DNA of 23,781 nucleotides. Origin: a virus. Where the stretch lies: the IMG/VR virus record IMGVR_UViG_3300005527_000295, positions 1 through 23,781 of that record; one strand, written 5' to 3'. The notes under the pieces were generated by a model, which worked only from the letters and a program-made list of their open reading frames with translations, was not told the origin of the DNA and did not search any database. This document shows positions 1 to 22,144 of this stretch, in pieces. The stretch's first letter is position 1; each line of letters opens with the position of its first letter. Position numbers and translations under genes: made by a program.

Positions 1-135
1 GAGATGCGTGATGCTTTCCTATCAAAGATGCAAGCGGAGAAGTCACTTGAGTACGCTACTAGCGTAGTTGAGTACAACCGTCAGCGCATCCGTCGCCTTG
101 AAGAAAGATTAAAAGAGATAGGAGACAAGGAATGA
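1..135 (+). CDS. Phage protein of unknown function, C-terminal fragment
   Basis: The reading frame is open from the first base of the window to a TGA at 133-135, so the gene starts upstream and only 44 residues are seen. The visible part is rich in Glu, Arg and Lys (for example RIRRLEERLKEIGDKE) and looks like the end of a coiled coil. Its stop overlaps the start of the next gene as ATGA, which indicates translational coupling in a rightward operon. An internal ATG at position 4 gives no stronger case for a complete short gene, since no ribosome binding site can be seen in front of it. Function cannot be assigned. Confidence 0.6.
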   Translation, partial: EMRDAFLSKMQAEKSLEYATSVVEYNRQRIRRLEERLKEIGDKE

Positions 136-449
136 CACCCGAAGACGAAGAGTTCACACGCATCGAGATGGAGTCTCGCGTTAAACAAGAGTACGTAAAG
201 TCTATGAACCGCAAGCGTCAGATAGCCGAACCACAAGATGCCGTAGTTCACTTGATGGACGAGTTAGCCATAGCAAGGATTGCCGTCAGAGAGTTAGGCG
301 ATAGGCTCTCGAAAGTAGAGAAGAGCAACACCCAAGTCAGAAACGAGACGCTAGACGAGGTTACGCATGAGTTTGAGAAACTGGCTATTGCTTTCGGAGT
401 AGACACAGTGCACAGCTTTATGATTTTTGTGCGGGAGATGAAGGAATGA
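132..449 (+). CDS. Hypothetical phage protein, helical (105 aa)
   Basis: I do not recognise this 105-residue protein. It is charged and probably mostly helical. Residues 35-70 contain a heptad-like stretch (DELAIARIAVRELGDRLSKVEKS) suggesting a short coiled coil and oligomerisation. No enzymatic motif, signal peptide or membrane segment is visible. The start is supported by an AGGAG sequence about nine bases upstream and by the ATGA overlap with the previous gene; its own stop overlaps the next start in the same way. It belongs to the rightward early/replication operon by position only. Confidence 0.7.
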   Translation: MTPEDEEFTRIEMESRVKQEYVKSMNRKRQIAEPQDAVVHLMDELAIARIAVRELGDRLSKVEKSNTQVRNETLDEVTHEFEKLAIAFGVDTVHSFMIFVREMKE

Positions 450-796
450 TAGACGTACTGTTGAGAGATCAGATTGCTATGGCGGCGATGCAAGCAATGT
501 TGATACGAGGAGATACAGAGGGCGTAGCAGAAGAAGCTTACCTACAAGCAGACAGGATGCTTGAGGCAAAAGTCAAAGCCCCCGCAAGTGATTGGTTAAG
601 GGAAGACCCCGCAATTTATTTAGAACTACCGAAAAGAGTAGCAAACGCAGTCAGAGCACAACACATCTTAACTATGGAGGACTTACTGGATACGAGAGCG
701 TATTTTTGGTTAAACCGAGTGCCCAACATGGGCGCAATGTCAGCAAAACAATTATTCGCCGCGTTGGAAAATCGCGGTCTTAAACTTAAATCTTAA
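446..796 (+). CDS. Small phage protein with an RNA polymerase alpha-CTD-like helix-hairpin-helix domain
   Basis: The N-terminal part (residues 1-45, RDQIAMAAMQAMLI then AYLQADRMLEAK) matches a short region I know from many small phage proteins of unknown function. The C-terminal part (about 55-116) reads like the C-terminal domain of the bacterial RNA polymerase alpha subunit: LPKRVANAVRAQHI, an MEDLLDT turn, then VPNMGAMSAKQLFAALENRGLKL. Compared with E. coli alpha from memory, R64, N67, G96 and S99 line up with the UP-element-contacting residues R265, N268, G296 and S299; the lysine at 298 is Met here. In alpha this fold binds the DNA minor groove and transcription factors. A role in DNA binding or in host transcription control is inferred; it could simply be a generic helix-hairpin-helix. 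ATGA overlap with the upstream gene. Confidence 0.75.
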   Translation: MIDVLLRDQIAMAAMQAMLIRGDTEGVAEEAYLQADRMLEAKVKAPASDWLREDPAIYLELPKRVANAVRAQHILTMEDLLDTRAYFWLNRVPNMGAMSAKQLFAALENRGLKLKS

Positions 797-806
797 AGAG
801 GAAAAT

Positions 807-1454
807 ATGGCAAAGAGATCACAAGCAATGAGCACAAAAGTGCGTAAGTATTTAGCAAAGCACCCACTTGCAAAAGCACAAGTCGTAGCCGACGCCACTG
901 GTGCAACGGTGCAATACGTCCACAACATTCGGTACGCTGATAAGAAGAATGGTGTGGTTAGTACACCGGCAGTAAAGAAGCCCAAGTGGAAGGCAGTATG
1001 GGCGGGTACAAGTAGCAAGTCAATCAAAGCCGACATGGAAGCAGACGCGCAGTTTGAGAAAGACCAAGACAAGCGTAGAGCACAAGGTTGGCAAGGTCAG
1101 CATGTTGGAGATAAGTTTGTGGCAGTCCCAGTAGGGTTTAACGGTACAACTAAAGCACATCTCGAAAATGCTTGGAATGAAATAACTAGAGAAGAAGCAA
1201 ACAAAACTAGAAAAGACATTGTTGCCGAGCACCATACCGACATGGTTAACCACCCACCTCACTACAAGATGGGCGGTATTGAGACTATCGACTTCATTGA
1301 GGCGAAGCAGTTTGGTTACAACCTAGGTAACGTAGTCAAGTACATCAGCCGTGCTGACCTCAAAGGTAGCCACTATGAAGACTTGCTCAAAGCACGTTGG
1401 TATTTAAACCGCGAGATCGCTAAGTTCTCACCAGACACAAAGGTAACCAAATGA
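807..1454 (+). CDS. DUF3310 domain protein with N-terminal helix-turn-helix-like region
   Basis: The C-terminal region (about residues 146-205) carries the DUF3310 signature: VNHPPHYKMGGIETIDFIE, then NVVKYISRAD and a Leu/Trp-rich helix ending RWYLNREI. DUF3310 is a small domain common in phage genomes, sometimes labelled nucleotide-kinase-like, but its reaction is not established. Residues 8-45 (STKVRKYLAKHP, VADATGATVQYVHNIRYADKK) look like a winged or simple helix-turn-helix, so a DNA-binding module fused to DUF3310 is plausible. The middle is a charged linker. The start at 807 is supported by AGAGGA upstream, and the stop overlaps the next ATG. Lies just upstream of the DNA polymerase gene. 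Confidence 0.85.
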   Translation: MAKRSQAMSTKVRKYLAKHPLAKAQVVADATGATVQYVHNIRYADKKNGVVSTPAVKKPKWKAVWAGTSSKSIKADMEADAQFEKDQDKRRAQGWQGQHVGDKFVAVPVGFNGTTKAHLENAWNEITREEANKTRKDIVAEHHTDMVNHPPHYKMGGIETIDFIEAKQFGYNLGNVVKYISRADLKGSHYEDLLKARWYLNREIAKFSPDTKVTK

Positions 1455-1696
1455 CTACAAAAGCAAAAGCCGACGAGACGGCGGAACTACATAAGTACAC
1501 AACATTCAAACTAGATGGCATCACTTATGTACCACACTACCGAGACGTTAAGAGATACGTTGGCCCGGGGTATCCAAGACACACTACTGATGTGTTTACA
1601 GCATCAGACTTGTTTAGTGCTGGCGCTGTGCCAACTATCTCATTTCTTTGGAAGCGATCTGAGTTTGGCATCATAAAAGCGGGAAAGATAGGATGA
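1451..1696 (+). CDS. Hypothetical phage protein (81 aa)
   Basis: I do not recognise this protein. It is small and basic, with several aromatic residues (YVPHYRDVKRYVGPGYPRH) and no cysteines, signal peptide or catalytic motif that I can see. ATGA overlaps on both sides (with the DUF3310 gene and with the DNA polymerase gene) and an AAGGT sequence upstream make it a credible gene coupled in translation to the polymerase. A polymerase accessory role is only a guess from position. Confidence 0.65.
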   Translation: MTTKAKADETAELHKYTTFKLDGITYVPHYRDVKRYVGPGYPRHTTDVFTASDLFSAGAVPTISFLWKRSEFGIIKAGKIG

Positions 1697-3552
1697 ATTT
1701 AATCACCCTTGACTTCGAAACGTTCTACGATAAAGACTTCTCTCTATCCAAATTAACAACTGAAGAATACATTCGCGATGACCGTTTTGAAGTTATCGGT
1801 GTAGGAGTAAAAATAAATGATGACGAAACGCAATGGTTCACAGGAGACCACGCCGACACCTCCGAGTTTCTATCTCGCTTTGACTGGGATAGTTCTTTTC
1901 TGCTTGCTCATAATTGCATGTTTGATGGTGCTATCCTTTCTTGGCGGTTTGGTATTAGGCCAAAAGTACTTCTCGATACCCTAGCAATGCTACGTGCCAT
2001 TGACGGCACAGAGGTTGGCAACAGCCTAGCAAAAGCCGCCGAGCGTTATGGCTTGGGGGTGAAGGGTACTGAGGTAGTCGCGGCTATGGGTAAACGCCGT
2101 GCTGATTTCTCTGCGGAGGACTTGGCGCAATATGGCGTGTACTGCAAGAACGACGTCAAGCTGACGTACGACTTGTTTAATATCTTGCAAGCAAACTTCC
2201 AGAAGCCAGAGCTTAAGCTAATAGACATGACTCTCCGTATGTTCACAGAGCCTACGCTACGTCTTGATCTACCTGTGTTGGAGCAACATCTTGTACTTGT
2301 ACAAGAAAAAAAGGAGGCCCTGATCGCCGAGGCATGCGCCGACAAAGAAGTGCTTATGTCCAATCAGAAGTTCGCCGAGCGATTGATTGAGTATGGTGTC
2401 CCACCACCCATGAAGGTTAGCCCCACGACAGGCAAAATGGCTTTGGCTTTGGCTAAGAGCGACGAGGGATTTAAAGCGTTGGCAGACCACTGGGATGAGC
2501 GGGTGCAAGCACTTGTTGCCGCGCGTCTTGGGACAAAGTCCACATTAGAAGAGACACGCACCCAAAGATTTATCTCCATAGCGAAGCGTGGTAGCCTTCC
2601 AGTTCCCCTGAGATACTATGCCGCACACACAGGGCGTTGGGGTGGGGACGACAAACTCAACCTACAGAACTTGCCACGCAAGTCACCACTCAAGACGGCT
2701 ATCGTAGTACCCGAAGGCTACGTCATGATTGATGCCGACTCCTCACAAATTGAAGCGCGGATCGTTGCATGGTTGGCGGGGCAAGCTGATTTGGTAAGCG
2801 CGTTTGCAAAAGGCGAAGACGTTTACAAGATCATGGCAACAAAGATATACAACAAACCTCTTGGAGAGATTGACGACGCTGAGAGATTTGTGGGTAAGAC
2901 TACGATTCTTGGCGCGGGCTACGGCATGGGTTGGCGCAAGTTTCAGATACAACTCAAGAACTTTGGGGTAAGTTTGGACGACAACATGTGCCAACATATT
3001 TTGAAGGTGTACCGACAAGAGTTCCCATATATTCCTGCGCTATGGGATGAAGGACACAAAACCTTGGATGCACTGGCAAGCCCTAAACTTGTTACTACTC
3101 CGTTTGGGAAACAGGCACAGGCAGTGAGCGTACTCCCCGGAATTGGATACGATCTTCCTAGCGGTTTGCCTCTCAAGTATATGAACTTGCGTGCCCCCGA
3201 GATTGACTTGCATGGTCGACCACAGTACGTCTACGATACCCGCAAAGGTGAAGTCCGTATCTACGGTGGTAAGGTAGTCGAGAACTTATGCCAAGCACTT
3301 GCACGCTGTGTGATTGCCGAGCAAATGCTACGGATAGCGAAACGCTACAAACCAGTTCTGACTGTGCATGATGCCGTGGCGTGCGTAGTATCCGAATTAG
3401 AGCGCGATGAAGCCATCAAATATGTAAACGAATGTATGCGTTGGCGACCCAAGTGGGCTGAGACTTTGCCTTTGGCATGTGAGATTGGTGCAGGAAAAAG
3501 CTACGGCGACTGCGGTAAGAAAATGTCTATTGAGAAATGGGGGCTGAAATGA
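1693..3552 (+). CDS. Family A DNA polymerase with 3'-5' exonuclease domain
   Basis: This is a replicative phage DNA polymerase of the Pol I family. The N-terminal DnaQ-like exonuclease shows Exo I (DFETFYD, D7/E9), Exo II (HNCMFDGA, D78) and Exo III (YCKNDVKLTYD, D154). The polymerase part has motif A DADSSQIEAR (catalytic D349), motif B in the O-helix RFVGKTTILGAGYG (R398, K402, Y410) and motif C VLTVHDAV (H559, D560). There is no 5' nuclease domain, and 619 residues is normal for phage enzymes of this type. Two substitutions stand out: the position equal to E. coli F762 is Leu406, and the residue after the motif C aspartate is Ala561 rather than Glu. It should copy the phage genome together with the primase-helicase and SSB-like protein encoded downstream. 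Confidence 0.97.
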   Translation: MNLITLDFETFYDKDFSLSKLTTEEYIRDDRFEVIGVGVKINDDETQWFTGDHADTSEFLSRFDWDSSFLLAHNCMFDGAILSWRFGIRPKVLLDTLAMLRAIDGTEVGNSLAKAAERYGLGVKGTEVVAAMGKRRADFSAEDLAQYGVYCKNDVKLTYDLFNILQANFQKPELKLIDMTLRMFTEPTLRLDLPVLEQHLVLVQEKKEALIAEACADKEVLMSNQKFAERLIEYGVPPPMKVSPTTGKMALALAKSDEGFKALADHWDERVQALVAARLGTKSTLEETRTQRFISIAKRGSLPVPLRYYAAHTGRWGGDDKLNLQNLPRKSPLKTAIVVPEGYVMIDADSSQIEARIVAWLAGQADLVSAFAKGEDVYKIMATKIYNKPLGEIDDAERFVGKTTILGAGYGMGWRKFQIQLKNFGVSLDDNMCQHILKVYRQEFPYIPALWDEGHKTLDALASPKLVTTPFGKQAQAVSVLPGIGYDLPSGLPLKYMNLRAPEIDLHGRPQYVYDTRKGEVRIYGGKVVENLCQALARCVIAEQMLRIAKRYKPVLTVHDAVACVVSELERDEAIKYVNECMRWRPKWAETLPLACEIGAGKSYGDCGKKMSIEKWGLK

Positions 3553-5845: not shown

Positions 5846-6257
5846 GGCGATCGACGACTCCGTCACTGATTCTTTGGTCTACGGGTCTTCAATGTTACAT
5901 GTGAAGAACAACAACGGAATAACAGCAATAACAAATGCTGGCCCTTTCATAACTCACATTGGTAACACTGGCATTGGCAGTGTTACCGCCGTAAAACAAA
6001 GCTACCCACCAATAGTTCGTCTTAGGAGTACTGACTTGGAAGAACACCCTGCATTTGAGTTAACCGTGGAACAACTCCGTGCCGCTTGGATGCTGGCGTA
6101 TGGAACACGTTGGGTGTCTATGGAGAAGCCTATGGACGACGACTATCTAAATGTTGTGGCGCATCGTCTACTTGCTTTTGGTGAAGTAGAAACCCATAAC
6201 GTAATCGACCAGTACACGCCTATGGGCAGAATAAAAATACAAGATGCAAGTAGTTGA
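5814..6257 (+). CDS. Hypothetical phage protein (about 147 aa, start uncertain)
   Basis: I do not recognise this protein. Visible parts are an N-terminal acidic stretch (AIDDSVTDSLVYGSSML), a Gly/Thr/Ile-rich middle (NAGPFITHIGNTGIG) that may form beta strands, and a helical C-terminal half (EQLRAAWMLAYG, DDDYLNVVAHRLLAFGE). The frame stays open upstream to ATGs at 5718 and 5727, the latter with AAGGGAG in front, which would give up to 179 residues but an overlap of about 120 bases with the HNH gene. The ATG at 5814 gives a 32-base overlap but has no good ribosome binding site. The stop overlaps the helicase start by 14 bases. Confidence 0.6.
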   Translation: MLADQTTGLSKAIDDSVTDSLVYGSSMLHVKNNNGITAITNAGPFITHIGNTGIGSVTAVKQSYPPIVRLRSTDLEEHPAFELTVEQLRAAWMLAYGTRWVSMEKPMDDDYLNVVAHRLLAFGEVETHNVIDQYTPMGRIKIQDASS

Positions 6258-7785
6258 AAACAAATACCTAGTCATACAGACTGAAGAGCCACAGAAGATT
6301 CTCTCGACGATTGCTAAGAGCGCCGAGTACACCGAAGACTCGGTGGCTGTTCATTGGGGGCTGAAAGAAGCACAGATGCTAAAGACGCTTGGCTGGGAAA
6401 GCGTGCCGTCCCCGATTAACCGAGACTATGACTGGCCCGGACTCCATAGGCCAATGAATCACCAAAAGGAAACTTCATCCTTTCTAACCCTACATCCCCG
6501 CGCTTTCTGTTTTAACGAACAAGGCACTGGCAAGACTGCATCAGCTATCTGGGCATCAGACTATTTAATAGCGCAGGGGTACATCAGCCGTGTTCTGGTT
6601 ATCTGCCCTGTGTCCATCATGCAAGCCGCATGGCAAGCCGACCTATTTAAGTTTGCTGTTCATCGCCACGTAGATGTAGCGCATGGAGATCGTAAGAAAC
6701 GCAAGGCTATCGTAGAAGGTGTAGCTGAGTACGTCATCATTAACTACGACGGTGTGAGCATTGTTGAAGAAGAACTCAAGGCTGGTGGGTTTGACCTCAT
6801 CATCATTGACGAAGCCAATGCCTACAAGAATTCTAGGACTGAGCGTTTTAAAACGTTGAGAAGAGTAGTCACTCCTGATACTTGGATATGGATGATGACT
6901 GGTACACCTGCAGCTCAATCACCATTAGATGCCTACGGCCTTGCCAAACTCTGCGTGCCTTCAAGAACCCCACACTTGTACACGGCGTTCCGCGATGTTG
7001 TGATGTATCAGTTCTCACGATTCAAATGGATTCCAAAACCGCAAGCCCAAGGCATTGTGCACAACCTACTGCAACCCGCGATTCGTTTCGAGAAGAAAGA
7101 CTGTATCGACTTGCCTGATGTGACACACACTTCACGGTTTGCACCGCTCACACCACAGCAGTCCAAGTACTACAAAGACCTCAAAAAAGAGATGCTAATC
7201 GAAGCAGTTGGCGATGAAGTTTCTGCGGTGAATGCGGCGGCTCAACTAAACAAACTATTACAAATCTCCTGTGGGGCTGTGTACACCGATACTAAAAATG
7301 TTATAGAGTTTGATGCGTCAAGCCGACTAAACATTTTGTTAGAAGTTATTGAGGAAGCCAGCCATAAAGTTCTAGTATTTGTGCCGTTTACTCATGCACT
7401 AAATCTAATACAAGATTTCTTAAATAAAAATAAAGTAACGTCAGAGATTATCAATGGCTCTGTAAGCGTGTCAAAGCGTACCGACATCTTTAAACGGTTT
7501 CAAGAACAAGATGAACCACGAGTACTTTTGATTCAACCACAAGCGGCGGCACATGGGGTAACCCTTACTGCGGCTAACGTAATCGTGTGGTACGCTCCTG
7601 TCACTTCGATTGAAACGTACTTGCAAGCAAACGCACGTATTGATAGGCCGGGACAGCGCAACCCTATGACGATCGTACATCTTGAAGGTAGTCCAGTAGA
7701 AACAAAACTCTACTCAATGTTGCAAAACAAATTGGACTTCCACAACAAGATTATTGATCTGTATAAAAGTGAAATTAACTCTTGA
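6244..7785 (+). CDS. SNF2-type superfamily 2 DNA helicase/translocase
   Basis: Both RecA-like lobes of a SNF2-family ATPase are present. Lobe 1 has motif I NEQGTGKT (91-98, K97), motif Ia VICPVSIMQAAW, motif II IIIDEAN (D189, E190; DEAN rather than DEAH) and motif III MMTGTPAAQSPLDAYGL. Lobe 2 has VLVFVPFTHAL, the motif V region AAAHGVTLTAAN and motif VI QANARIDRPGQR (461-472), typical of SNF2 proteins. Phage members of this family remodel or unwind DNA during replication, recombination or transcription; no accessory domain shows the substrate. It follows the nuclease genes in the same operon and may pair with the RecB-like nuclease. The stop codon lies inside the -35 region of the next promoter. 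Confidence 0.95.
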   Translation: MQVVENKYLVIQTEEPQKILSTIAKSAEYTEDSVAVHWGLKEAQMLKTLGWESVPSPINRDYDWPGLHRPMNHQKETSSFLTLHPRAFCFNEQGTGKTASAIWASDYLIAQGYISRVLVICPVSIMQAAWQADLFKFAVHRHVDVAHGDRKKRKAIVEGVAEYVIINYDGVSIVEEELKAGGFDLIIIDEANAYKNSRTERFKTLRRVVTPDTWIWMMTGTPAAQSPLDAYGLAKLCVPSRTPHLYTAFRDVVMYQFSRFKWIPKPQAQGIVHNLLQPAIRFEKKDCIDLPDVTHTSRFAPLTPQQSKYYKDLKKEMLIEAVGDEVSAVNAAAQLNKLLQISCGAVYTDTKNVIEFDASSRLNILLEVIEEASHKVLVFVPFTHALNLIQDFLNKNKVTSEIINGSVSVSKRTDIFKRFQEQDEPRVLLIQPQAAAHGVTLTAANVIVWYAPVTSIETYLQANARIDRPGQRNPMTIVHLEGSPVETKLYSMLQNKLDFHNKIIDLYKSEINS

Positions 7786-9687: not shown

Positions 9688-12501
9688 ATGACAAGAGCAG
9701 ATTTACTGTCGACGGTGTTATCGTCTGACGGGTGGTACTGCGTGGTGGGTCTAAAGAAGACAGGCCACCCTCGACAAATATTTGTTGAGGACATGCAGGG
9801 AGTAGAAGATGCCGTTCAGACTTTGATGGACGAAGGATTTGACGTTTACTTTGCGTGTGCAAAGTACGAAGAATCAGGTTCACGTACTAACGATAACGTG
9901 AAAAACATCAAGTCGTTTTGGCTTGATATCGACTGTGGGGTAGGTAAGCCGTATGCCGATCAAGGTGACGGACTAGCCGCGCTTAAAACATTCTGTAAAA
10001 CTGTTGGCTTACCGAAGCCGACGATTGTGAACTCTGGTCGTGGACTGCATGTCTACTGGCCTTTGACTGAACCAATCTCCCGCAAAGAGTGGGTTAACAC
10101 CGCTAAGCGCTTAAAAGTTGTGTGCAATCAGGAAGGGTTGGAGGACGATCCCGCTAGAACCGCCGATGCCGCATCTATTTTGCGGATGCCTGACACATTC
10201 AACCATAAGACTGAGCCACCACTGCCTGTAGCAGTTATGGTGATGGGCGACGAGATATCGTTCGGTGAGTTCAAAGACAAACTGGGCGTGATAGATGAGA
10301 CGCCAGACTATCTGCCTACATTTGCAGATGACATGACCAAGGCGTTGATGGGCAATCGTCAGCACCGATTCCAAATCATAGTAGACAAGAACGTAAATGG
10401 AACAGGCTGTCTGCAGCTAGCTAGGGCTATCGCTGACCAAAAGGTTTTGGACGAACCACGTTGGCGTGCCGCACTATCTATTGCTAAGTTCTGCACGGAT
10501 GCCGACACTGCCATACATGATGTATCTAGAGATCACCCCGACTACCACCCTGACGAGACAGTCGCCAAGGTACAACTAATCAAAGGCCCTTACACATGCC
10601 AGTCATGGGAGGCTATCAACCCATCAGGTTGCGCAGGTTGCATCCATAAAGGCAAAATTAAAAGTCCTATTGTTCTTGGCGCAGAGATTGCCGCCGCTAC
10701 AGCAGAGGACAACACGGTTGAGTATGTGACGGAAGAAAAGACGGTTATCTACGATATCCCCGAATATCCTTTTCCATACTTCAGAGGTAAGAACGGCGGC
10801 GTCTACCGCAAGTCAGATGATGATGACCCCGAAGCCGACCTGATTTACGAACACGACCTATATGTGGTCAAGCGATTGAAAGACCCGCAAGCGGGTGAAA
10901 CCATTTGGATGCGTCTGCACACCCCCCGTGACGGCGTAAAAGAGTTTGCGTTGCCTGTGGTGGATTTGCTGACAACAGATAAGTTACGCGAGAAGCTGGC
11001 TTGGTTTGGTGTCGTGGCATTGAAGAAGCAAATGGAAAACATCATGGCCTATATCGTTCGTTCGGTAAAGGAGATGCAATACAAACAAGGAGCAGAGATT
11101 ATGAGGACGCAGTTCGGTTGGACCGAGAAGGATAAATCGTTTATTTTGGGTGAGCGGGAGATTACCGCACAGGGTGACAAGTACAGCCCACCATCTAGTT
11201 ACACAGCAGACCTTTCAGATTGGTTCAACCCAGTCGGTGACTTTGAAGAATGGAAAAGCGTAATAAATAAGTACGACATTCCGGGGTTTGAGCCCCATGC
11301 GTTTGGATTCTTTACTGCGTTTGGCGCACCGCTAATGAAGCATTTACACCTTAAAGGCGCAATCATTAACATGATTAACAATGAGTCTGGCACAGGCAAG
11401 ACGACAGCCATCAAAGCCATGCACAGCGTGTACGGGCACCCCGAAGAACTAATGCTGATCGAGCGAGATACTATGGCAGTGCGCTTACACCGACTCGGTG
11501 TGATGAACAACATTGGGTTGGGCTGTGACGAGATTACCAAGATGAAGCCAGACGATTGCTCTGACTTTGCCTATGCAGTTTCCCAAGGCCGAGGCCGTGG
11601 ACGGATGAACTCCAACTCGAACTCTGAGCGCAAGAACTTTGCTAAGTGGCAGACTATGCTTCTCTGTTCATCAAACGCATCAATCGTAGACAAGCTTAAG
11701 TCCCTGAAGTCCACACCCGACGGTGAGTTGATGCGGGTAATTGAGTATCAAATCCCTGAGACTAAGCTAATCACTAAGGAAGAAGCCGACGACCTGTATC
11801 CCAAACTCTACACAAACTACGGGCATGCAGGGGCTATCTACATCCGTGACTTAGTGGAAAACTTGGAAGAGCGCATCTTAGAAGTCAAAGAACTACAGCG
11901 CATCATTGACAAGCAGATTGGGTTTACAGGCCGTGAGCGGTTCTGGTCAGGTGTGGCGGCATGCAACATAGCTGGTGCTTTGTTTGCCAAGCGGTTAGGA
12001 ATCCATGATATCGACGTAGGTCGCGTACTTAAATGGGCAGTCGCCGAGTTTGGTCAGATGCGTACAGAGATTAAGCCACCAGCCACAACCCACAGCAGTG
12101 TGATCGGCGAGTACTGGAGTGAGCACCGTCGCAATACCTTGGTGATTAACGACCAAGCGGACAAGCGAACGGGGGTAGAGATGCTCCCTATCTTAGAACC
12201 ACAGGGTGAACTTATCATCCGGATGGAGCCCGATACCCGCAAGTTGTTCATTATCAGTAAGAAGTTACGGGCTTGGTGTGCTGAGCACCAGATCACGATA
12301 AAGGATGTGCTTACATCACTCACCAAAGACGGTATCTATGTCGGCACCGTAAAGAAGCGTATGGCTAAAGGCACGAAGATTAGCGGCATCCCACCAGTTG
12401 ATGCGTTTGTATTTGATTGTTCTAAGGGCGACTTCCTTGACCCCGATGCTTTTATAGGTACTACAGATACGGATGAGGCGCAAGCCGATGAGGATAAATG
12501 A
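9688..12501 (+). CDS. Primase-helicase (AEP-type primase plus RecA/AAA-like helicase)
   Basis: This 937-residue protein joins two activities. The N-terminal third is an archaeo-eukaryotic primase-like domain: WLDIDCG supplies the DxD pair (D80, D82), NSGRGLHVYW the following motif (H121), and the TADAASILRMPDTFNHK segment (159-173) the third conserved region. A cysteine cluster (C304, C315, C318) may bind zinc. The C-terminal part holds a helicase ATPase with Walker A NESGTGKTT (K571), Walker B GCDEIT (D614, E615), a sensor-like SSNAS (N663) and a candidate arginine finger (R683), of the DUF927 type seen in phages and mobile elements. It should prime and unwind at the fork for the family A polymerase. 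AGAGG upstream supports the start. Confidence 0.93.
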   Translation: MTRADLLSTVLSSDGWYCVVGLKKTGHPRQIFVEDMQGVEDAVQTLMDEGFDVYFACAKYEESGSRTNDNVKNIKSFWLDIDCGVGKPYADQGDGLAALKTFCKTVGLPKPTIVNSGRGLHVYWPLTEPISRKEWVNTAKRLKVVCNQEGLEDDPARTADAASILRMPDTFNHKTEPPLPVAVMVMGDEISFGEFKDKLGVIDETPDYLPTFADDMTKALMGNRQHRFQIIVDKNVNGTGCLQLARAIADQKVLDEPRWRAALSIAKFCTDADTAIHDVSRDHPDYHPDETVAKVQLIKGPYTCQSWEAINPSGCAGCIHKGKIKSPIVLGAEIAAATAEDNTVEYVTEEKTVIYDIPEYPFPYFRGKNGGVYRKSDDDDPEADLIYEHDLYVVKRLKDPQAGETIWMRLHTPRDGVKEFALPVVDLLTTDKLREKLAWFGVVALKKQMENIMAYIVRSVKEMQYKQGAEIMRTQFGWTEKDKSFILGEREITAQGDKYSPPSSYTADLSDWFNPVGDFEEWKSVINKYDIPGFEPHAFGFFTAFGAPLMKHLHLKGAIINMINNESGTGKTTAIKAMHSVYGHPEELMLIERDTMAVRLHRLGVMNNIGLGCDEITKMKPDDCSDFAYAVSQGRGRGRMNSNSNSERKNFAKWQTMLLCSSNASIVDKLKSLKSTPDGELMRVIEYQIPETKLITKEEADDLYPKLYTNYGHAGAIYIRDLVENLEERILEVKELQRIIDKQIGFTGRERFWSGVAACNIAGALFAKRLGIHDIDVGRVLKWAVAEFGQMRTEIKPPATTHSSVIGEYWSEHRRNTLVINDQADKRTGVEMLPILEPQGELIIRMEPDTRKLFIISKKLRAWCAEHQITIKDVLTSLTKDGIYVGTVKKRMAKGTKISGIPPVDAFVFDCSKGDFLDPDAFIGTTDTDEAQADEDK

Positions 12502-12682: not shown

Positions 12683-15600
12683 TTACTGACCCAGCATTGG
12701 CAGAGTTTTGTACAGCATCTTCTTGTTGAGGCGTGCACCGATTGCTTCGGCTTCTGCATCGCTTTCAGCGCGTTTGATTACAGTATTGAATACTGACTCT
12801 GCTGTGATAGCCATTCCCGGATATTTGGCAGAAAACTCTGCGGCTTTCTCCAAGTTAGCTTCCAAAGTATCTGAGCCAAACTTAATATCAAGATAAATGC
12901 GAGTCAGCAACTCATCGTGGCGGGTTTGGACTTTTCGGTCGTACTCAACTGCTTGGAACGCTTTCTTCTGAGCCATAGCACGCTTCTCAGTTTGGAAACC
13001 TACAGCCTCCATTGCGAGATTCCATGCGCTGAACTCTTCTGCGTACATGTTGCCGATCACAACGCCCTTCTTGTTCGTAGCACCCTCGGTACCAAGACGG
13101 AAAGCGGTTGCTGGCTTAGACAGAATCGCTGGTGCAACAGTCTCAAACGCACGACTAACTTGACCTTCTTGGAATAGTTTCCATCCGTCAGCCCAGTTAA
13201 ACAACAGACCAACAGAAGGACCAAGGTTAGCAATCACTTCTTCTTTCAAAGACTCGCGTATATCGGGAGAGAATTTGCCGTCACGGAACCAAAGGTTCTT
13301 CAAGTCCAAACTGACACGGTCGGCAAGCGCGGTACCAGTAAGTTTAGATGCCGCACCACGGGTAATGACGTTAGCTATTGCTCTACCAAACTCATCAACT
13401 TCCGCTACCTTCTGTGGGTCACCACCCGTGCTAAGGTACATTGACGAAGCCCATCCACCGAGCGTATCTTCCATGCCGTTGTAGAAATCATTCTGCCAGT
13501 TGAGGAACTCGTCGTCTTCATCGTCGTCATTGAACATGCGAACCAGCGGGCCAAGCATTGAGAAGAATGGCATTGCTGTGATACCACCGTATAGAAACGC
13601 CATACCAAGAATACCGGCAAGACGACGACGGCCTTCCTTGTACATCTCTTTGCGTTGCACTTCCATCTCACCGACCTTTCGGTCAATGTCTTCTGTGGTT
13701 AGGTCTTTATTCTTCTCTAGCTCAGCACGGAACTGAGCAATCTCACCTTTAGAGAATGGAGCGCCCAAGGTTAGATAGAGATTGCGCAACACAACATATG
13801 ACGTGGTAATTGCGTACTGTTTGAACTGTAGTAATACGTTAACCCCGGGCTTCGTAAAGATGCGCCCTTTCATTTGACGCGTATAGTCACCGAGAGTTAA
13901 ACCAGCAATGTCACCCGCGTCGGTAATCGCTGCCTCGAACGCTTCGTCATCAGTAAGTTTGACTGGGTTGCCATACTGGTCGCGCTGTACGACACCGCGA
14001 ATGTCTTTTTTGTCTGAGCCTTTGAATTTGTCGTACGCCAGTTTGAAAGACGTTAGCATCGCTACTTCACGGTTCAAGCGTTCCGCTTGATGGAACATCG
14101 CCGCCAGTGCTTGCTTAACTGTATTAGTGCGTCCCGTATACATCGCAGATGGTTGCTCACTCATGCTGAACACGTCATGCGTCGAGGAAATATTCCATTG
14201 CCCGTCTTGGGTAAAGCGTTCTGCCGCCCTGCGTTCTATCGGGTCTAAGTCTTTGCTATCCGTAATGGATGGGAATTCAATAGAAGAGAAGGCACCTGCC
14301 TTCAACGGGCCTACAGTTCGCTTAGCCGTAGTCCCAATGTAGCGACCAAGGTTCTTCAGCATCAACTTATTAGTTTCGGCGTAGCCATACTTACCGCCGA
14401 TATACGGCATGGTGATAGCCTGCATACCGATAATGTTCAGCATGGCGGAAGCTGGTGCAGTCAGCATAAAGAAGAACGTTGTCTCAGTAATCCGCCCAGC
14501 CATCTTAGCCCAAGCACTCTTATCCTCAATACCAAGCACAGTCTGAGTACGCGCCTCCAACTCACGCACAAAGTCACGATAGACAATCTGTTGCTCTACG
14601 GGAAGCTGATCTATGTACTTGTCAGCATTGCTGATGTTATTCATGAAAGGCTCAGCGTACTTAAAGCGAGCCTGTTGATACGCACTATGAACCGAAGTCA
14701 TTGCAAAGACACGCAACATATCTGCGCTAGCGCCCTGTACGGCACGGCGGTTGATAAACATCTTACGCATGCTTTGCTGTGGGAGTAGCAAGTACACGAG
14801 TTGGTTGATGCTGTCTTTAATTTCGCCCTTTAGTTGTGCAGGATCGGCAGTGGTCAACTGGTCAACCATCTTGTTAATGTCGCCAAGCACCTTGCTGGTG
14901 TTTGCGTTGTGCGAATAGATAGTGGAGATGCCTTGACCAGCATACATAGTATCTGCTAATTCTTGCTGTTTCTCATCGCCATTTTGTAACTCGCGTCGGC
15001 GCTCATTCAAAGCACGGCGTCTCTCTGACGCACTCTCAAACATGTAGAACTCTTTTTTGTCGCCTTCGCCAACTTGAAACCAGTAGTCACCAAAACGACG
15101 TAGCGGAAAGTAAGGACGCACTAACTTATCAGGTCCAAACTGATCGTCAATCTGGGCAAGTAGTTTGGCACGCTCATCATTAGGTAGACCTTTGGTCTTG
15201 TCCTTCATAGCCTGCACCATGTCTTGCACAGACCGAGCATAGTAGTCACGGGCATCCCGATAGATTTCTTGGAACTCAGGGAGCAGCGTGCCCCAAGCAT
15301 CCGACAATGCTTTATTAACTTTGTTTGCGTTGTATCCATCGCCTTTGGGGTCGACCTCGATGCCACGTATCGTCACTTCAAGCATTAACCTACCCATGAG
15401 GCGGGACTGAGCAGGGTTCTCCCCCTGTGCTTTAGACCAACGCTTAGTGATGCCTTCTGGAGATTTGCTAATGTCGCCGTTGACTGGGCCACTAATCTTG
15501 TTACCACGATAGGAAGTCATTTGCTCAACGATACCTACGCTTGCCTCTAACTGCGGAATGGTGCCGCGAGTCATATCTTTTAACTGGCGCAGTTGTAGCA

Positions 15601-18600
15601 CGGGCAGTATGACTTTGCGGGCAGAGTCGCCAGCCACATCAAAGATGATGTCTTTTAAATCTTTTAACGCGTCGGCCTTGGTGGGGTGCCCACTCATTAA
15701 ATCAGATATGCGTTCTTTAATGTTCTTACCGTCGCGCTCAGCAATCTTCCAACCATCAGCGTTACTGATTGGCCCCGCATTGTTTTCTTTTTTGGTAAAC
15801 AGAGGGCCGACAGGGAATACTTTAAATGGACGATGGGCAGAGAATATCTCGTTGACTTCGATTGCTGCTGCTCCTGCTAGGTTATCAAACCCAAGCAACT
15901 TCATGATGGCATTAACAATGCGAGAGAAGACACTAGCACCCTTGGCTTGGTACTTAATGTTTTTAAGTTTGTCTTGGAATCCTTTGTTTGTCATCAGTTC
16001 TGCGACAAACTCTGAAATGCTCTTAAGACCATATTCACCCGCAGGTAAACGGTCTTTAGCGTAGCGATACATCTTTTGGAGTTCGGCAACCGCTTCTATC
16101 TGGCGCTTAGACAAACCATCTGGGCTACGAAGCGCAAACTCTGTGGCGGCATGCACGATCTCATGCAAGACAACACGATTCGATGTGCCAAAAGTTGGGT
16201 TTGGGTTAATGTTGATTACATCAAACGCAGGCAAGAAAAAGCCGGGTGCGTTCATGTTGGGGATAAGTTCACCAAAAACTTTTACTACAGATTTAAACTC
16301 ACTCTCAACCGGTGCTTTCTTGTACTTACCTTTGTCAAACTCGCGCAGGCCATCCATGACGCGCTCAAGATTCTCTTCACGATCGAAGTTTTCAAAATAC
16401 TTTGTGTACAGGTCAGGGTACATCTGACGGATGTACGAGAACAAATGCACCTGCTGCGGTGCAGTCTGGCGGTCAATTTCTTTACGGAACAACTTGCGCT
16501 GCTGCCCAAACACAATGGTGACTGGTAAATCTAACTCTGCTAAACGTGCGGCTAGCTCCCGGGTAAAGCCTGACGTGTTCTGTGCCATAGCACGGAGAGC
16601 ACCATTGACATCATTGTTTTCAATCGCCTTGGCTACATCAGGGTGCAATGAACTAGATGCTTTTACGCCAGTCTCTGCAGTCTCCCAACCTTTTGGACCT
16701 GCATATTTAGCCGACTCCAAATCTTCCCCTGCAAACAAAGCACCGGGAAGTTCAGTCTTACGGGTGAGTCCTGACCACGCTTTCTTTTTCTTTTCAATTT
16801 GTGTGTTTAGCTCATCCCACTGTTCACGTTTCTTTGAGCCATCAGCAGGTAACTTACCTGCCTTAGTCAATAGCTTTTGCTGCTTATCTGTAAGTGCACG
16901 AATCTCTGTATGTAGGGCTTCAGCACGGGAGGTGTCCCCTGCTTCAGTAGACAAAGAAAGAATTTTGTTTCCTTCTTTAGCGGCTTCTAATATTTGTTTT
17001 GGCGTAGTAAGTTTTTGTAAACTTCTTACAGTGTCAGGAGTTATGTTGAATAGGTCGTCTACGTCAACTGCATAGACGTCATCTCCATGAGCTAAAGACT
17101 CTGTTGCGGCACGGGACGATTCAAGGCTACCTTCTTCAGTCAACCTAGTAGTTAGGGCTTCAAAGTCTATAGGCTTTTGGTTGAGGAACTTATACGCCGC
17201 CGCGTTTATAACTCTAGCTTCGCCTTCTTTAATAAAGTTTGCTTTTTCATGGATTCGTTGAACTAACTGTTCATCAGTAAATGCTGCTGCTCTAGTGGGC
17301 GGAACCATCACAGCCCTAGAACCATTGGGTCTAGATATCACAGTCCAGCCGTCATCACCCCTAACTACTTTATAGTCTTGAGTTTCAGTTGTGGTTTCGT
17401 CCCCAGCGTAATTTGTTACATCGTTTGCCGCCGTATATATAGGCCCTTTCCGCGCCGCGCCTTGCTTTATTTTTTTATTAAGCTCTTCGGTAGGTAAATT
17501 TAATGTTTCTTCTACAGACTTTTCATCCAAACTTTTTTGCCCTGCCATAACTGCATCTTCATCAAGAACTTCAGTAGATACAGGGGCGACGTCGGCGGGT
17601 GCTTCTTTCTTTGCTTCGTAGTAAGCATCGATTTGTTTTAGGCGTTCCGAAGACTCTGCGGTTTCAGCTTGTTTTTTAGACCCGTAAGTACCAATTACCT
17701 CACCATCTTTAGTAAGCGTCCATTGTTCTTGGCCCCTTATTTTTCTAACCAAATACCCTGAAGTATCGGGCGGAGTAACTGTTGCAGTTTCTTCTGCAAA
17801 TGGGTCAACCTCAAACGGATCGACGATAGCCGTCTGCTTTGGTGCAGGGGCAAAGATATCAGGAGGCTCTGGGGCTTCTAGTTGAGTCTCGTCTACTGCA
17901 CCTGCCTGTATTGCGGCACGCTCGACATCCATTTCCTTCTGTACTTTTTCGCGGGCAGCGCGTTCTTTACGTACGGCAGGTGGCTCAAGTGCTTGGAGTT
18001 TGCTCTCAAGCGTGGTTTTCAATCCTTCGTAGTCGTCAACCAAAAACTCAGGGGCTTCGCCAAACCGTTGCTCAGCCGCGTCGACCTTAGCTTTAGCCTC
18101 ATCGACTCTTGCTTTTAACCTAGTGAGTTCATCCTGTGCAGGGGGAACTGTCATGTCTTGTTGCGTAAGCGCAGGGGCAGCAGCAACGGATTGCTTCAAC
18201 GCGTCGACTTCAATCTGTTCTTGCTTGGTGCGGGTTGGTTTTTGCTCCAACTCAGCGATGCGTTGTTGTTTCTCTTCCTGTGCAATCAGTGCATCCAAGT
18301 TTTTAATTTGCTGACCTTCGGGCGTACCCTCTAGTTCCATCTGTCGGCGAGCCTGTGAACCTTCTCTAGCACCAACAGCAGTACCTAAACCAGCAGCAGT
18401 TAACGCGCCTAGCGTACCTGCACCAACAGCGCCACGGAACGTAGGTACATCAAAGCCTTCACGTTGCTGAGCAATATTCTGTGCAACTTGTTCTTGGCCT
18501 TCTTGTCCGAACTCTGTACCGGCCTCGGTTACGCCCGTGATAGCCCCTTGTTTATATGGTCCGCGTTTAGCCGCAGTCTTAGTAGCCGCTTGCGTAGCCT

Positions 18601-19381
18601 TCTCAACTGCTTCGCGCTGAAGAATATTTCCAGCCGAACGTCCTGCAATCTTTTGTGCCATCTGGCGGGCAACCACACCTTCTAAGCCAGTAGCCGCACT
18701 AAGACCACCGATAGCAGTGCCCATCAAAATCTGATCTAGGTTTTCTCCGTTGTAAGACTGCGCTAGCGCCGCACGCTTTTCGATTTGATCCGGTGATAAC
18801 TTAGTATTGGCACTAAGCACGTCTTTTACCGCTTCGTAGATAGAGCCTTTTACAGAACCAGTACCCATAGCCGCACCAGTGCCAGCGCCAACAGCCGTAG
18901 TAGCCATAGCACCACCACGCAACAAAGTCGTTGCTAAGCCGCCAGCAATGACAGGCATTGCATTACCAAAGACGTTCGCTAGTAAATCAACGGGAGCAAC
19001 GGAGAATGCCTTAACGCCAGCCAACACTTGGTCAGCAACGCCTTTATCTTCGGCATCTTTCATGATGCGGCTGATCTCTCTGGAGTCCTTCTTAGACTGA
19101 GCGCTTAGTAAATCGCCGACATAGTCCTCGACACCACGCAAGCCTTTAGAGACTGGGTTATCCGCACCAAGCACGTCAGTCAGCATACGCACGCCCTGAA
19201 CTGCGCCCTTAGTAACTTGTAGGGGAACGTCCGCTACTTGGCGGAATCCAGACTGAGACTCTGGTGTCGGCTCAGGTGTGGCAAACGGATCGACGATCCC
19301 TCTGGCTTGCGGGGCTGCTTGTTGTGCGAATGGATCAACAATCGCCGGTGCTTTAGGGGCAAACGGATCAACGATCGGCAT
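12683..19381 (-). CDS. Giant polyvalent virion protein with zinc-metallopeptidase motif and PLxRFG domain
   Basis: The 2232-residue protein is of the large polyvalent type that phages package and inject with their DNA. In order: three IVDPFA repeats (3-34); Gly/Ala-rich hydrophobic segments (about 120-180 and 310-340); charged coiled coil (about 350-500); another IVDPF plus VDPFA pair (near 518); two similar W-containing small domains (about 540-580 and 669-705); a zinc-peptidase-like domain with HEIVH (H1073, E1074, H1077) and a candidate third ligand in SISEFVAE (E1124 or E1128); the PLRRFG motif (1426-1431); then hydrophobic stretches such as TETTFFFMLTAPASAM and GILGMAFLYGGITAMPFF. The protein may process host or phage proteins at entry and contact the membrane. 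AAGGT precedes the start. It is the last gene of the virion operon. Confidence 0.92.
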   Translation of the reverse strand: MPIVDPFAPKAPAIVDPFAQQAAPQARGIVDPFATPEPTPESQSGFRQVADVPLQVTKGAVQGVRMLTDVLGADNPVSKGLRGVEDYVGDLLSAQSKKDSREISRIMKDAEDKGVADQVLAGVKAFSVAPVDLLANVFGNAMPVIAGGLATTLLRGGAMATTAVGAGTGAAMGTGSVKGSIYEAVKDVLSANTKLSPDQIEKRAALAQSYNGENLDQILMGTAIGGLSAATGLEGVVARQMAQKIAGRSAGNILQREAVEKATQAATKTAAKRGPYKQGAITGVTEAGTEFGQEGQEQVAQNIAQQREGFDVPTFRGAVGAGTLGALTAAGLGTAVGAREGSQARRQMELEGTPEGQQIKNLDALIAQEEKQQRIAELEQKPTRTKQEQIEVDALKQSVAAAPALTQQDMTVPPAQDELTRLKARVDEAKAKVDAAEQRFGEAPEFLVDDYEGLKTTLESKLQALEPPAVRKERAAREKVQKEMDVERAAIQAGAVDETQLEAPEPPDIFAPAPKQTAIVDPFEVDPFAEETATVTPPDTSGYLVRKIRGQEQWTLTKDGEVIGTYGSKKQAETAESSERLKQIDAYYEAKKEAPADVAPVSTEVLDEDAVMAGQKSLDEKSVEETLNLPTEELNKKIKQGAARKGPIYTAANDVTNYAGDETTTETQDYKVVRGDDGWTVISRPNGSRAVMVPPTRAAAFTDEQLVQRIHEKANFIKEGEARVINAAAYKFLNQKPIDFEALTTRLTEEGSLESSRAATESLAHGDDVYAVDVDDLFNITPDTVRSLQKLTTPKQILEAAKEGNKILSLSTEAGDTSRAEALHTEIRALTDKQQKLLTKAGKLPADGSKKREQWDELNTQIEKKKKAWSGLTRKTELPGALFAGEDLESAKYAGPKGWETAETGVKASSSLHPDVAKAIENNDVNGALRAMAQNTSGFTRELAARLAELDLPVTIVFGQQRKLFRKEIDRQTAPQQVHLFSYIRQMYPDLYTKYFENFDREENLERVMDGLREFDKGKYKKAPVESEFKSVVKVFGELIPNMNAPGFFLPAFDVININPNPTFGTSNRVVLHEIVHAATEFALRSPDGLSKRQIEAVAELQKMYRYAKDRLPAGEYGLKSISEFVAELMTNKGFQDKLKNIKYQAKGASVFSRIVNAIMKLLGFDNLAGAAAIEVNEIFSAHRPFKVFPVGPLFTKKENNAGPISNADGWKIAERDGKNIKERISDLMSGHPTKADALKDLKDIIFDVAGDSARKVILPVLQLRQLKDMTRGTIPQLEASVGIVEQMTSYRGNKISGPVNGDISKSPEGITKRWSKAQGENPAQSRLMGRLMLEVTIRGIEVDPKGDGYNANKVNKALSDAWGTLLPEFQEIYRDARDYYARSVQDMVQAMKDKTKGLPNDERAKLLAQIDDQFGPDKLVRPYFPLRRFGDYWFQVGEGDKKEFYMFESASERRRALNERRRELQNGDEKQQELADTMYAGQGISTIYSHNANTSKVLGDINKMVDQLTTADPAQLKGEIKDSINQLVYLLLPQQSMRKMFINRRAVQGASADMLRVFAMTSVHSAYQQARFKYAEPFMNNISNADKYIDQLPVEQQIVYRDFVRELEARTQTVLGIEDKSAWAKMAGRITETTFFFMLTAPASAMLNIIGMQAITMPYIGGKYGYAETNKLMLKNLGRYIGTTAKRTVGPLKAGAFSSIEFPSITDSKDLDPIERRAAERFTQDGQWNISSTHDVFSMSEQPSAMYTGRTNTVKQALAAMFHQAERLNREVAMLTSFKLAYDKFKGSDKKDIRGVVQRDQYGNPVKLTDDEAFEAAITDAGDIAGLTLGDYTRQMKGRIFTKPGVNVLLQFKQYAITTSYVVLRNLYLTLGAPFSKGEIAQFRAELEKNKDLTTEDIDRKVGEMEVQRKEMYKEGRRRLAGILGMAFLYGGITAMPFFSMLGPLVRMFNDDDEDDEFLNWQNDFYNGMEDTLGGWASSMYLSTGGDPQKVAEVDEFGRAIANVITRGAASKLTGTALADRVSLDLKNLWFRDGKFSPDIRESLKEEVIANLGPSVGLLFNWADGWKLFQEGQVSRAFETVAPAILSKPATAFRLGTEGATNKKGVVIGNMYAEEFSAWNLAMEAVGFQTEKRAMAQKKAFQAVEYDRKVQTRHDELLTRIYLDIKFGSDTLEANLEKAAEFSAKYPGMAITAESVFNTVIKRAESDAEAEAIGARLNKKMLYKTLPMLGQ
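19281..19377 (-). repeat. Three IVDPFA-encoding repeats at the start of the giant virion gene
   Basis: Near-identical units of about 17 bases, each encoding IVDPFA, lie at 19281-19297, 19326-19342 and 19359-19377 on the - strand, separated by Pro/Ala/Gln-rich linkers. A further double copy (IVDPFEVDPFA) is encoded near 17796-17828. Synonymous differences between copies suggest selection for the peptide rather than recent duplication. Confidence 0.85.
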
Positions 19382-21682: not shown

Positions 21683-22144
21683 TTAGAATTCGTAGATCAT
21701 TTGTGTAGCGGCTTCTTTAAAACCCATACGGCCCCAAAGTTTCGCTACACGTAAGTCGGTCATTGCCGACACCATCAAACGTTTTGTACCCCTAGATTTT
21801 AGGTCTTGGAGTACAAACAAAACAAGTTTTTTACCAACGCCATTGCGGTGCGTTTTCAACACAAAGAGAGTATCTTCTTGCGAAATTAAATCTCCGTTGT
21901 GCATGTCGTTGGTTAGATACACATTAGCGTACCCACAGGCTTCCCCATCATGGCGCAAAACATAGGTGAGTAAATCACCACGCTCGCAGGCCGCACCATA
22001 TTCATGCAACCTAGGGTTATACGGGGAGTACGTAATACCCTGACCATCAAGACGCTCAACCATCTCAGCATAGTGCTGACGGTACAAGGGCTCAAGCTCC
22101 AAGTACGTGTCGGTAAACTTCTCGACGTTTATTTCGTAGGTCAT
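21683..22144 (-). CDS. GNAT-family N-acetyltransferase
   Basis: The 153-residue protein has the GNAT fold signature: a beta strand DTLFVLKTH, the acetyl-CoA pyrophosphate loop HRNGVGKKL (99-107, the Q/RxxGxG/A-like motif), an amphipathic helix LVLFVLQDLKSRG, then MVSAMTDLRVAKLWGRMGFKEA, which is motif B with the characteristic LWGRMGF. Such proteins transfer acetyl from acetyl-CoA to an amine on a protein, peptide or small molecule; the substrate is not shown by the sequence. Stand-alone GNATs are frequent in the late regions of podovirus-like phages. Its start overlaps the stop of the upstream virion gene (ATGA), and only ten bases separate it from the Gln-rich virion gene, so it is expressed late with structural proteins. 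Confidence 0.92.
   Translation of the reverse strand: MTYEINVEKFTDTYLELEPLYRQHYAEMVERLDGQGITYSPYNPRLHEYGAACERGDLLTYVLRHDGEACGYANVYLTNDMHNGDLISQEDTLFVLKTHRNGVGKKLVLFVLQDLKSRGTKRLMVSAMTDLRVAKLWGRMGFKEAATQMIYEF

Follow-up and report, generated by a model that had tools for sequence, protein, structure and literature searches.

Why would a phage encode, among its replication genes, a small protein that ends in a domain of RNA polymerase, and is the domain what it appears to be? The first-pass annotation of the DNA analyzed here (the window, a 23.8-kb virus record) had proposed that one short gene carries a relative of the C-terminal domain of the RNA polymerase alpha subunit (alpha-CTD). We address the identity of that domain, its history in related phages, and the functions that its residues and setting would allow.

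The gene and its neighborhood

The gene lies on the plus strand at 446..796 as an open reading frame from ATG to TAA for a two-domain protein of 116 residues. Codons 1-45 (446..580) specify an N-terminal phage module with the pattern RDxxAxxAM..AYxxADxMLxAK and predicted helices at residues 4-20 and 27-43, and codons 48-116 (587..793) specify the alpha-CTD, assigned from Pfam, NCBIfam and PDB matches, from the ortholog L008 and from model superposition. A ribosome-binding-like GGGAG (433-437) precedes the start codon, which shares an ATGA with the stop codon of the gene before it (together 433..449, plus strand); the same four-base overlap occurs in L003-L006 and L008. That upstream gene (132..449, plus strand, 105 residues) has no confident Pfam family. 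On the 3’ side follow a gene with DUF3310 (807..1454, plus strand; Pfam, and PHROG ‘nucleotide kinase’), a small ORF, and a family-A DNA polymerase gene of the same operon (1693..3552, plus strand; Pfam and PHROG), leaving two genes between the alpha-CTD gene and the polymerase gene. Beyond the polymerase lie genes for a PD-(D/E)XK nuclease, an SNF2-type helicase (6244-7785) and a primase-like protein (9688-12501), and Pfam and PHROG annotation together identify the setting as a DNA-replication operon. At the megablast level, no DNA similar to the window was found in the INPHARED phage collection.

Elsewhere in the window, a single ORF of 2,232 residues (12683-19381, minus strand) represents a giant multi-domain phage protein. 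One stretch of it matches a DarB-like antirestriction family (PHROG 10089, E 1.2e-42), and it contains an HExxH motif (LHEIVHAATEF).

Identity of the C-terminal domain

Taken alone, the window protein gives an alpha-CTD signal in sequence comparisons that is weak, yet specific. Its best Pfam model among 24,736 is RNA_pol_A_CTD (PF03118; residues 59-108, E 0.0014) at 18.8 bits, below the cut-off of 23.8 bits for that model and followed by DUF3701 at 16.2 bits. The best NCBIfam model is rpoA (residues 58-115, E 2.5e-4), and a search of PDB sequences gave 24 matches at E<=10, every one of them RpoA (best E 8.5e-4). L008, an ortholog with 75% identity, exceeds the Pfam cut-off (29.0 bits, 9e-7), and a profile of the family picks up the L028 and L086 proteins of sister phages (E 5e-7 and 3e-7, respectively). 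These two score 55.6 and 60.4 bits against RNA_pol_A_CTD, PDB comparison agrees, and they are unmistakable alpha-CTDs. Because L008 passes Pfam and the profile reaches L028 and L086, the chain of homology from the window protein to the alpha-CTD is closed. At the family level, membership in PF03118 by curated profile holds for L008 and for 26 of 26 aligned phage sequences (best E 6.8e-23).

We also considered a generic helix-hairpin-helix (HhH) domain with a convergent likeness to alpha-CTD. The small Pfam margin of the window protein alone speaks for this, as do the HHH_5 matches of 12 of the 26 phage relatives (best 7.5e-7). However, neither HHH_5 nor DUF3701 is a better match than alpha-CTD for the window protein or its relatives. 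Among the 50 matches listed for each of two PDB fold searches, one with Foldseek and one with a second fold aligner, all were RNA polymerase alpha, either alone or as part of a complex. A convergent origin is therefore largely refuted, and we consider it very improbable. The profile and Foldseek searches suggested in the first-pass annotation thus place alpha-CTD on top, with no unrelated HhH family doing better, and profile matches, homology traced through intermediates and the comparison of folds all uphold its preference for alpha-CTD over a generic HhH domain: residues 48-116 are an alpha-CTD with the central DNA-contact residues kept. When the family-only profile was run against PDB, recA tandem constructs ranked first; we rejected these as sums of sub-significant repeats (each with an i-Evalue of ~800).

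Other collections were searched for the family. The E. coli alpha-CTD as query matched no family in PHROGs (v4), the window protein (P0001) found only RpoA of bacterial sequence in INPHARED, and a GTDB scan of cellular genomes did not find the alpha-CTD-protein family. In a plasmid collection queried with the L028 domain, every named gene among the matches listed is rpoA.

AlphaFold2 with a 26-sequence alignment gave a model with a mean pLDDT of 82, helices at 63-71, 77-81, 85-90 and 97-109, and the alpha-CTD fold; with six close orthologs only, the C-terminal domain reached a pLDDT of about 50-60 with a similar helix order. The model superposes on E. coli RpoA 250-316 over 67 residues (second aligner: Z 12.5, rmsd 1.4 Å, 33% identity). 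As the 26-sequence alignment included phage alpha-CTDs picked by an alpha-CTD pattern, the model and the sequence evidence are not separate lines of argument; the model confirms compatibility with the alpha-CTD fold, short of independent proof.

DNA-contact and protein-contact residues

In the E. coli alpha-CTD, the patch at 285-288 faces activators and the patch at 258-261 faces sigma. Aligned with E. coli RpoA, the window protein keeps the key minor-groove contact R265 as R64 (codon 635..637) and N268 as N67 (644..646). Within codons 94-99 (725..742; NMGAMS for NLGKKS of E. coli N294-S299), it keeps N294, G296 and S299 as N94, G96 and S99. R64, N67, G96 and S99 had been named beforehand as the DNA-contacting set; the alignment agrees and N94 joins them. 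K271, K291 and E261 are also kept, as R70, R91 and E60. Replacements are found at C269 (A68; C in L008), K297 (A), E302 (Q102) and D258/D259 (I/Y), as well as at K298, which is M98 in six of six aligned orthologs. Residues 285-288 have become R, A, F and W, and one residue is inserted ahead of helix 3. Five of the eight contact residues looked at are identical, which is only modestly above the domain average of ~33%.

Across the 26 phage alpha-CTDs, the R265 equivalent, an arginine outside the search pattern, is invariant; all 26 have S or T at the S299 position and a basic residue at that of K271. In sequences retrieved with the pattern, its Asn, Pro and Gly are necessarily conserved and hence are no evidence. 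The first-pass annotation had suggested that a small phage protein with this domain could bind UP-element-like DNA, compete with alpha or redirect activators. R265 and N268 bind DNA and are required for UP-element activation (PMC11434276), and retention of the main contact residues fits DNA binding by the window protein. By the alignment, the domain has largely retained its DNA face, and its protein-contact faces have diverged. Since the 285-288 patch and most of the 258-259 patch are not kept in the window family, the chances of canonical activator contacts are lowered, and canonical contacts with CRP-like activators or with sigma region 4 seem doubtful. The alpha-CTD of the distant L114 group, described below, keeps host-like patches (RTEVEL, DLDL).

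A mobile N-terminal module

What had been described as a short phage-specific segment fused to the alpha-CTD proved to be a separate phage module, as indicated by PHROG matches and by ORFs of sister phages. Residues 6-45 weakly match PHROG 20565 and PHROG 2201, families of unknown function (PHROG 20565 E 3e-4; 2.3e-5 for L008). Positions ~5-45 of the family profile match free-standing ORFs of about 65-77 residues in sister phages (best E 5e-5), which share the motif LRDxFAxxAMxG...AYxxADAMLxAR. The module forms two helices in the AlphaFold2 model. These matches identify residues 5-45 as a mobile phage module; that it oligomerizes or docks onto a partner would be a guess. In L114, three consecutive small genes (10370-11205) carry the module (RDxxAxxAM..AYxxADAM) in the manner of a shuffling cassette: at the C-terminus of another protein, nearly alone, and, in the third, fused to an alpha-CTD.

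Conservation and loss in close relatives

IMG/VR contains eight full-length relatives that are 75-100% identical and one cut by a contig end. The full-length orthologs (L001-L008) have the same ends at all eight loci, and pairwise whole-gene dN/dS among six orthologs is 0.025-0.37. The alpha-CTD gene is therefore real and under purifying selection.

Three phages with a polymerase 97-98% identical to that of the window (L010, L011 and L022) have lost the gene. Between the same flanking genes, each retains codons 82-97 (L010 425-472, L011 1335-1382, L022 8421-8468). Two deletions have taken away the beginning of the gene and most of its end while sparing its neighbors and the ribosome-binding-like AAGAGG ahead of the DUF3310 gene. 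The shared remnant indicates loss, rather than lack of gain. Because close relatives have lost it, the gene serves an accessory function, and it is dispensable in some settings.

Distribution among other phages

Scanning the DNA of IMG/VR with the pattern NCL[KR]-21 residues-PN[x]GK identified 27 contigs. The ORFs found are 55-210 residues long, some of them cut by contig ends, and in most the alpha-CTD is near the C-terminus behind varied N-termini; the collected set includes at least six different N-terminal settings. Five contigs (L114, L123, L125, L130 and L137) encode proteins of 132-133 residues with the two-domain architecture of the window protein, which aligns with that of L114 at 30% identity over residues 7-116 (E 5e-10). 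A relative of the window polymerase (47-58% identity) is present on 12 of the 27 contigs, and in 10 of these 12 distant contigs the alpha-CTD gene lies directly against the polymerase gene or overlaps it. Among 50 sister-phage records with a window-type polymerase, eight carry an alpha-CTD and most do not. A tree from 63 alignment columns does not discriminate between single and repeated capture from host rpoA.

Two further types of phage alpha-CTD were noted. One, with the N-terminus MKIHVEFNSIAEMV..., is found in L113 (7982-8458), L115, L118, L122, L133 and L139 just downstream of the polymerase gene, which it overlaps in L115, L122, L133 and L139 and follows by about 1 kb in L113 and L118. 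The other, divergent, type is encoded on the reverse strand of L129 (5998-6498) and L135 (1452-1952) and seems to end in a zinc-ribbon-like tail, CPFCHRKFW.

Small sigma-70 region 4 proteins are also encoded by sister phages (L011 364-813, L114 7661-8353). That of the L114 group matches PF04545 (66.5 bits, E 1.5e-18), and eight other IMG/VR contigs, several of which also carry the same polymerase, encode homologs of that of L011. We considered, and rejected, a swap between alpha-CTD and sigma region 4. In the 50 sister records, eight alpha-CTDs and 13 confident sigma region 4 proteins never co-occur, an absence of overlap with a probability of about 0.07; the 36-kb record of L022, which has lost its alpha-CTD, yields no confident sigma region 4, and in the L114 group the two domains are found together.

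Possible functions of a free alpha-CTD

We propose that the window protein, an alpha-CTD free of RpoA, binds DNA and thereby regulates the host RNA polymerase in trans, a reading that we judge the most likely of those considered, at about even odds. From the domain identity, conservation, loss and context observed, we infer each functional step. At promoters of the phage (or of the host), the alpha-CTD half would take the place of a host alpha-CTD in the minor groove of A/T-rich DNA resembling UP elements, and the N-terminal half would pair with itself or with another phage protein. The outcome would be that phage promoters are favored, or UP-dependent host promoters weakened, as the replication genes come on.

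Identity of the domain, its fold and DNA-contact residues, purifying selection and fixed gene ends are consistent with such a regulator. The L114 group encodes both polymerase modules that contact upstream promoter DNA, alpha-CTD and sigma-70 region 4, which favors a role in transcription. Precedents, by analogy, for phages that target alpha-CTD function are T4 Alt/ModA, which modify Arg265 of the host alpha-CTD (PMC2988021), and LUZ19 Rac, a phage GNAT that causes host alpha-CTD removal (PMC7552054). Against the regulator stand the failure to keep K298, C269 and E302, the loss of the 287 patch and of D258/D259, the small margin by which identity at the contact residues exceeds the domain average, the dependence of the confident model on pattern-selected alpha-CTDs, and a position among replication genes with no recognized transcription factor beside it. 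A broader proposal is that the phages of this clade supply upstream-promoter-contacting modules in trans, replacing host domains on phage promoters, with a free alpha-CTD and, in the L114 group, a free sigma region 4 as well; we regard this as speculative and rather unlikely. In the literature searched, no characterized phage protein that supplies such modules in trans was found.

The position among replication genes raises the alternative that the protein is a replication accessory, a sequence-lax minor-groove DNA-binding part that aids the family-A DNA polymerase, helicase or primase without contacting RNA polymerase. The gene sits in the polymerase/helicase/primase operon, and the sigma- and activator-contact patches are lost in the window family; we keep a replication role as a serious rival because the alpha-CTD gene adjoins the polymerase gene in so many of the distant contigs. 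However, this is an argument from position alone, early operons of phages contain regulatory as well as replication genes, and in the window two genes intervene before the polymerase. Given that so few of the sister records with the same polymerase carry an alpha-CTD, the domain is not needed for replication, and the retention of host-like patches in the L114 group also argues against such a role, which we judge possible but on the unlikely side. More doubtful still is a decoy, in which the free alpha-CTD titrates a host or rival-phage factor that docks on the RpoA alpha-CTD, either an activator or a protein that modifies or cleaves the domain, with DNA binding not needed. Alt/ModA and Rac show that alpha-CTD-acting phage proteins exist, R265, the target in T4, is retained as R64, and patchy presence and loss would fit a conditional, defense-like role; but the window family has lost the 287 patch that faces activators, and no interacting factor is known.

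Comparison with known systems

With the E. coli RpoA alpha-CTD (PF03118, residues 250-316), the window protein has in common the fold and the equivalents of R265, N268, N294, G296 and S299; it differs in having no tether to an alpha N-terminal domain, in its fusion to a phage helical module, in K298->M, C269->A and E302->Q, and in replacement of the 285-288 and 258-259 patches. Pfam finds no alpha N-terminal domain, the part that dimerizes and holds beta/beta', in the 116-residue ORF. The window protein is therefore not an alpha subunit and cannot assemble into polymerase as one.

Small phage proteins automatically named as alpha-CTDs, including those of Rhodococcus phage Finch and Mycobacterium phage Mithril, are distant sequences, of which two can be aligned almost from end to end (about 130 columns, 26-28% identity). 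Bacillus phage Goe8 QDP42789 (210 residues) and Microbacterium phage Mazun gp26 (141 residues) have a C-terminal alpha-CTD behind an unrelated N-terminal part, and ORF40 of Erythrobacter phage vB_EliS-L02, compared by annotation only, is annotated as a free-standing alpha-CTD protein (PMC9127768). The Goe8, Mazun and vB_EliS-L02 proteins belong to other phage lineages and have other N-termini than the window protein. Phage alpha-CTD proteins are thus already known and automatically annotated, and the window protein is not unprecedented; as far as we found, none has been characterized, and the literature searched contained no functional study of a phage-encoded alpha-CTD.

T4 Alt/ModA and LUZ19 Rac act on the same polymerase module by modifying the host domain or causing its cleavage, whereas the window phage encodes its own copy. 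The window also contains a GNAT-type acetyltransferase gene near the structural genes (21683-22144, minus strand; PHROG 1249, E 2e-8); a link to the RpoA-cleaving Rac found no support, as LUZ19/phiKMV are absent from its four phage hits.

The usual accounts of phage takeover of RNA polymerase involve proteins that modify, inhibit or cut. A free copy of the alpha-CTD that recurs on varied N-termini would be a different route, in which a part of the polymerase is supplied in trans. The set collected here, with its conserved R265 equivalent, its relatives with and without the gene and its N-terminal settings, makes supply in trans directly testable.
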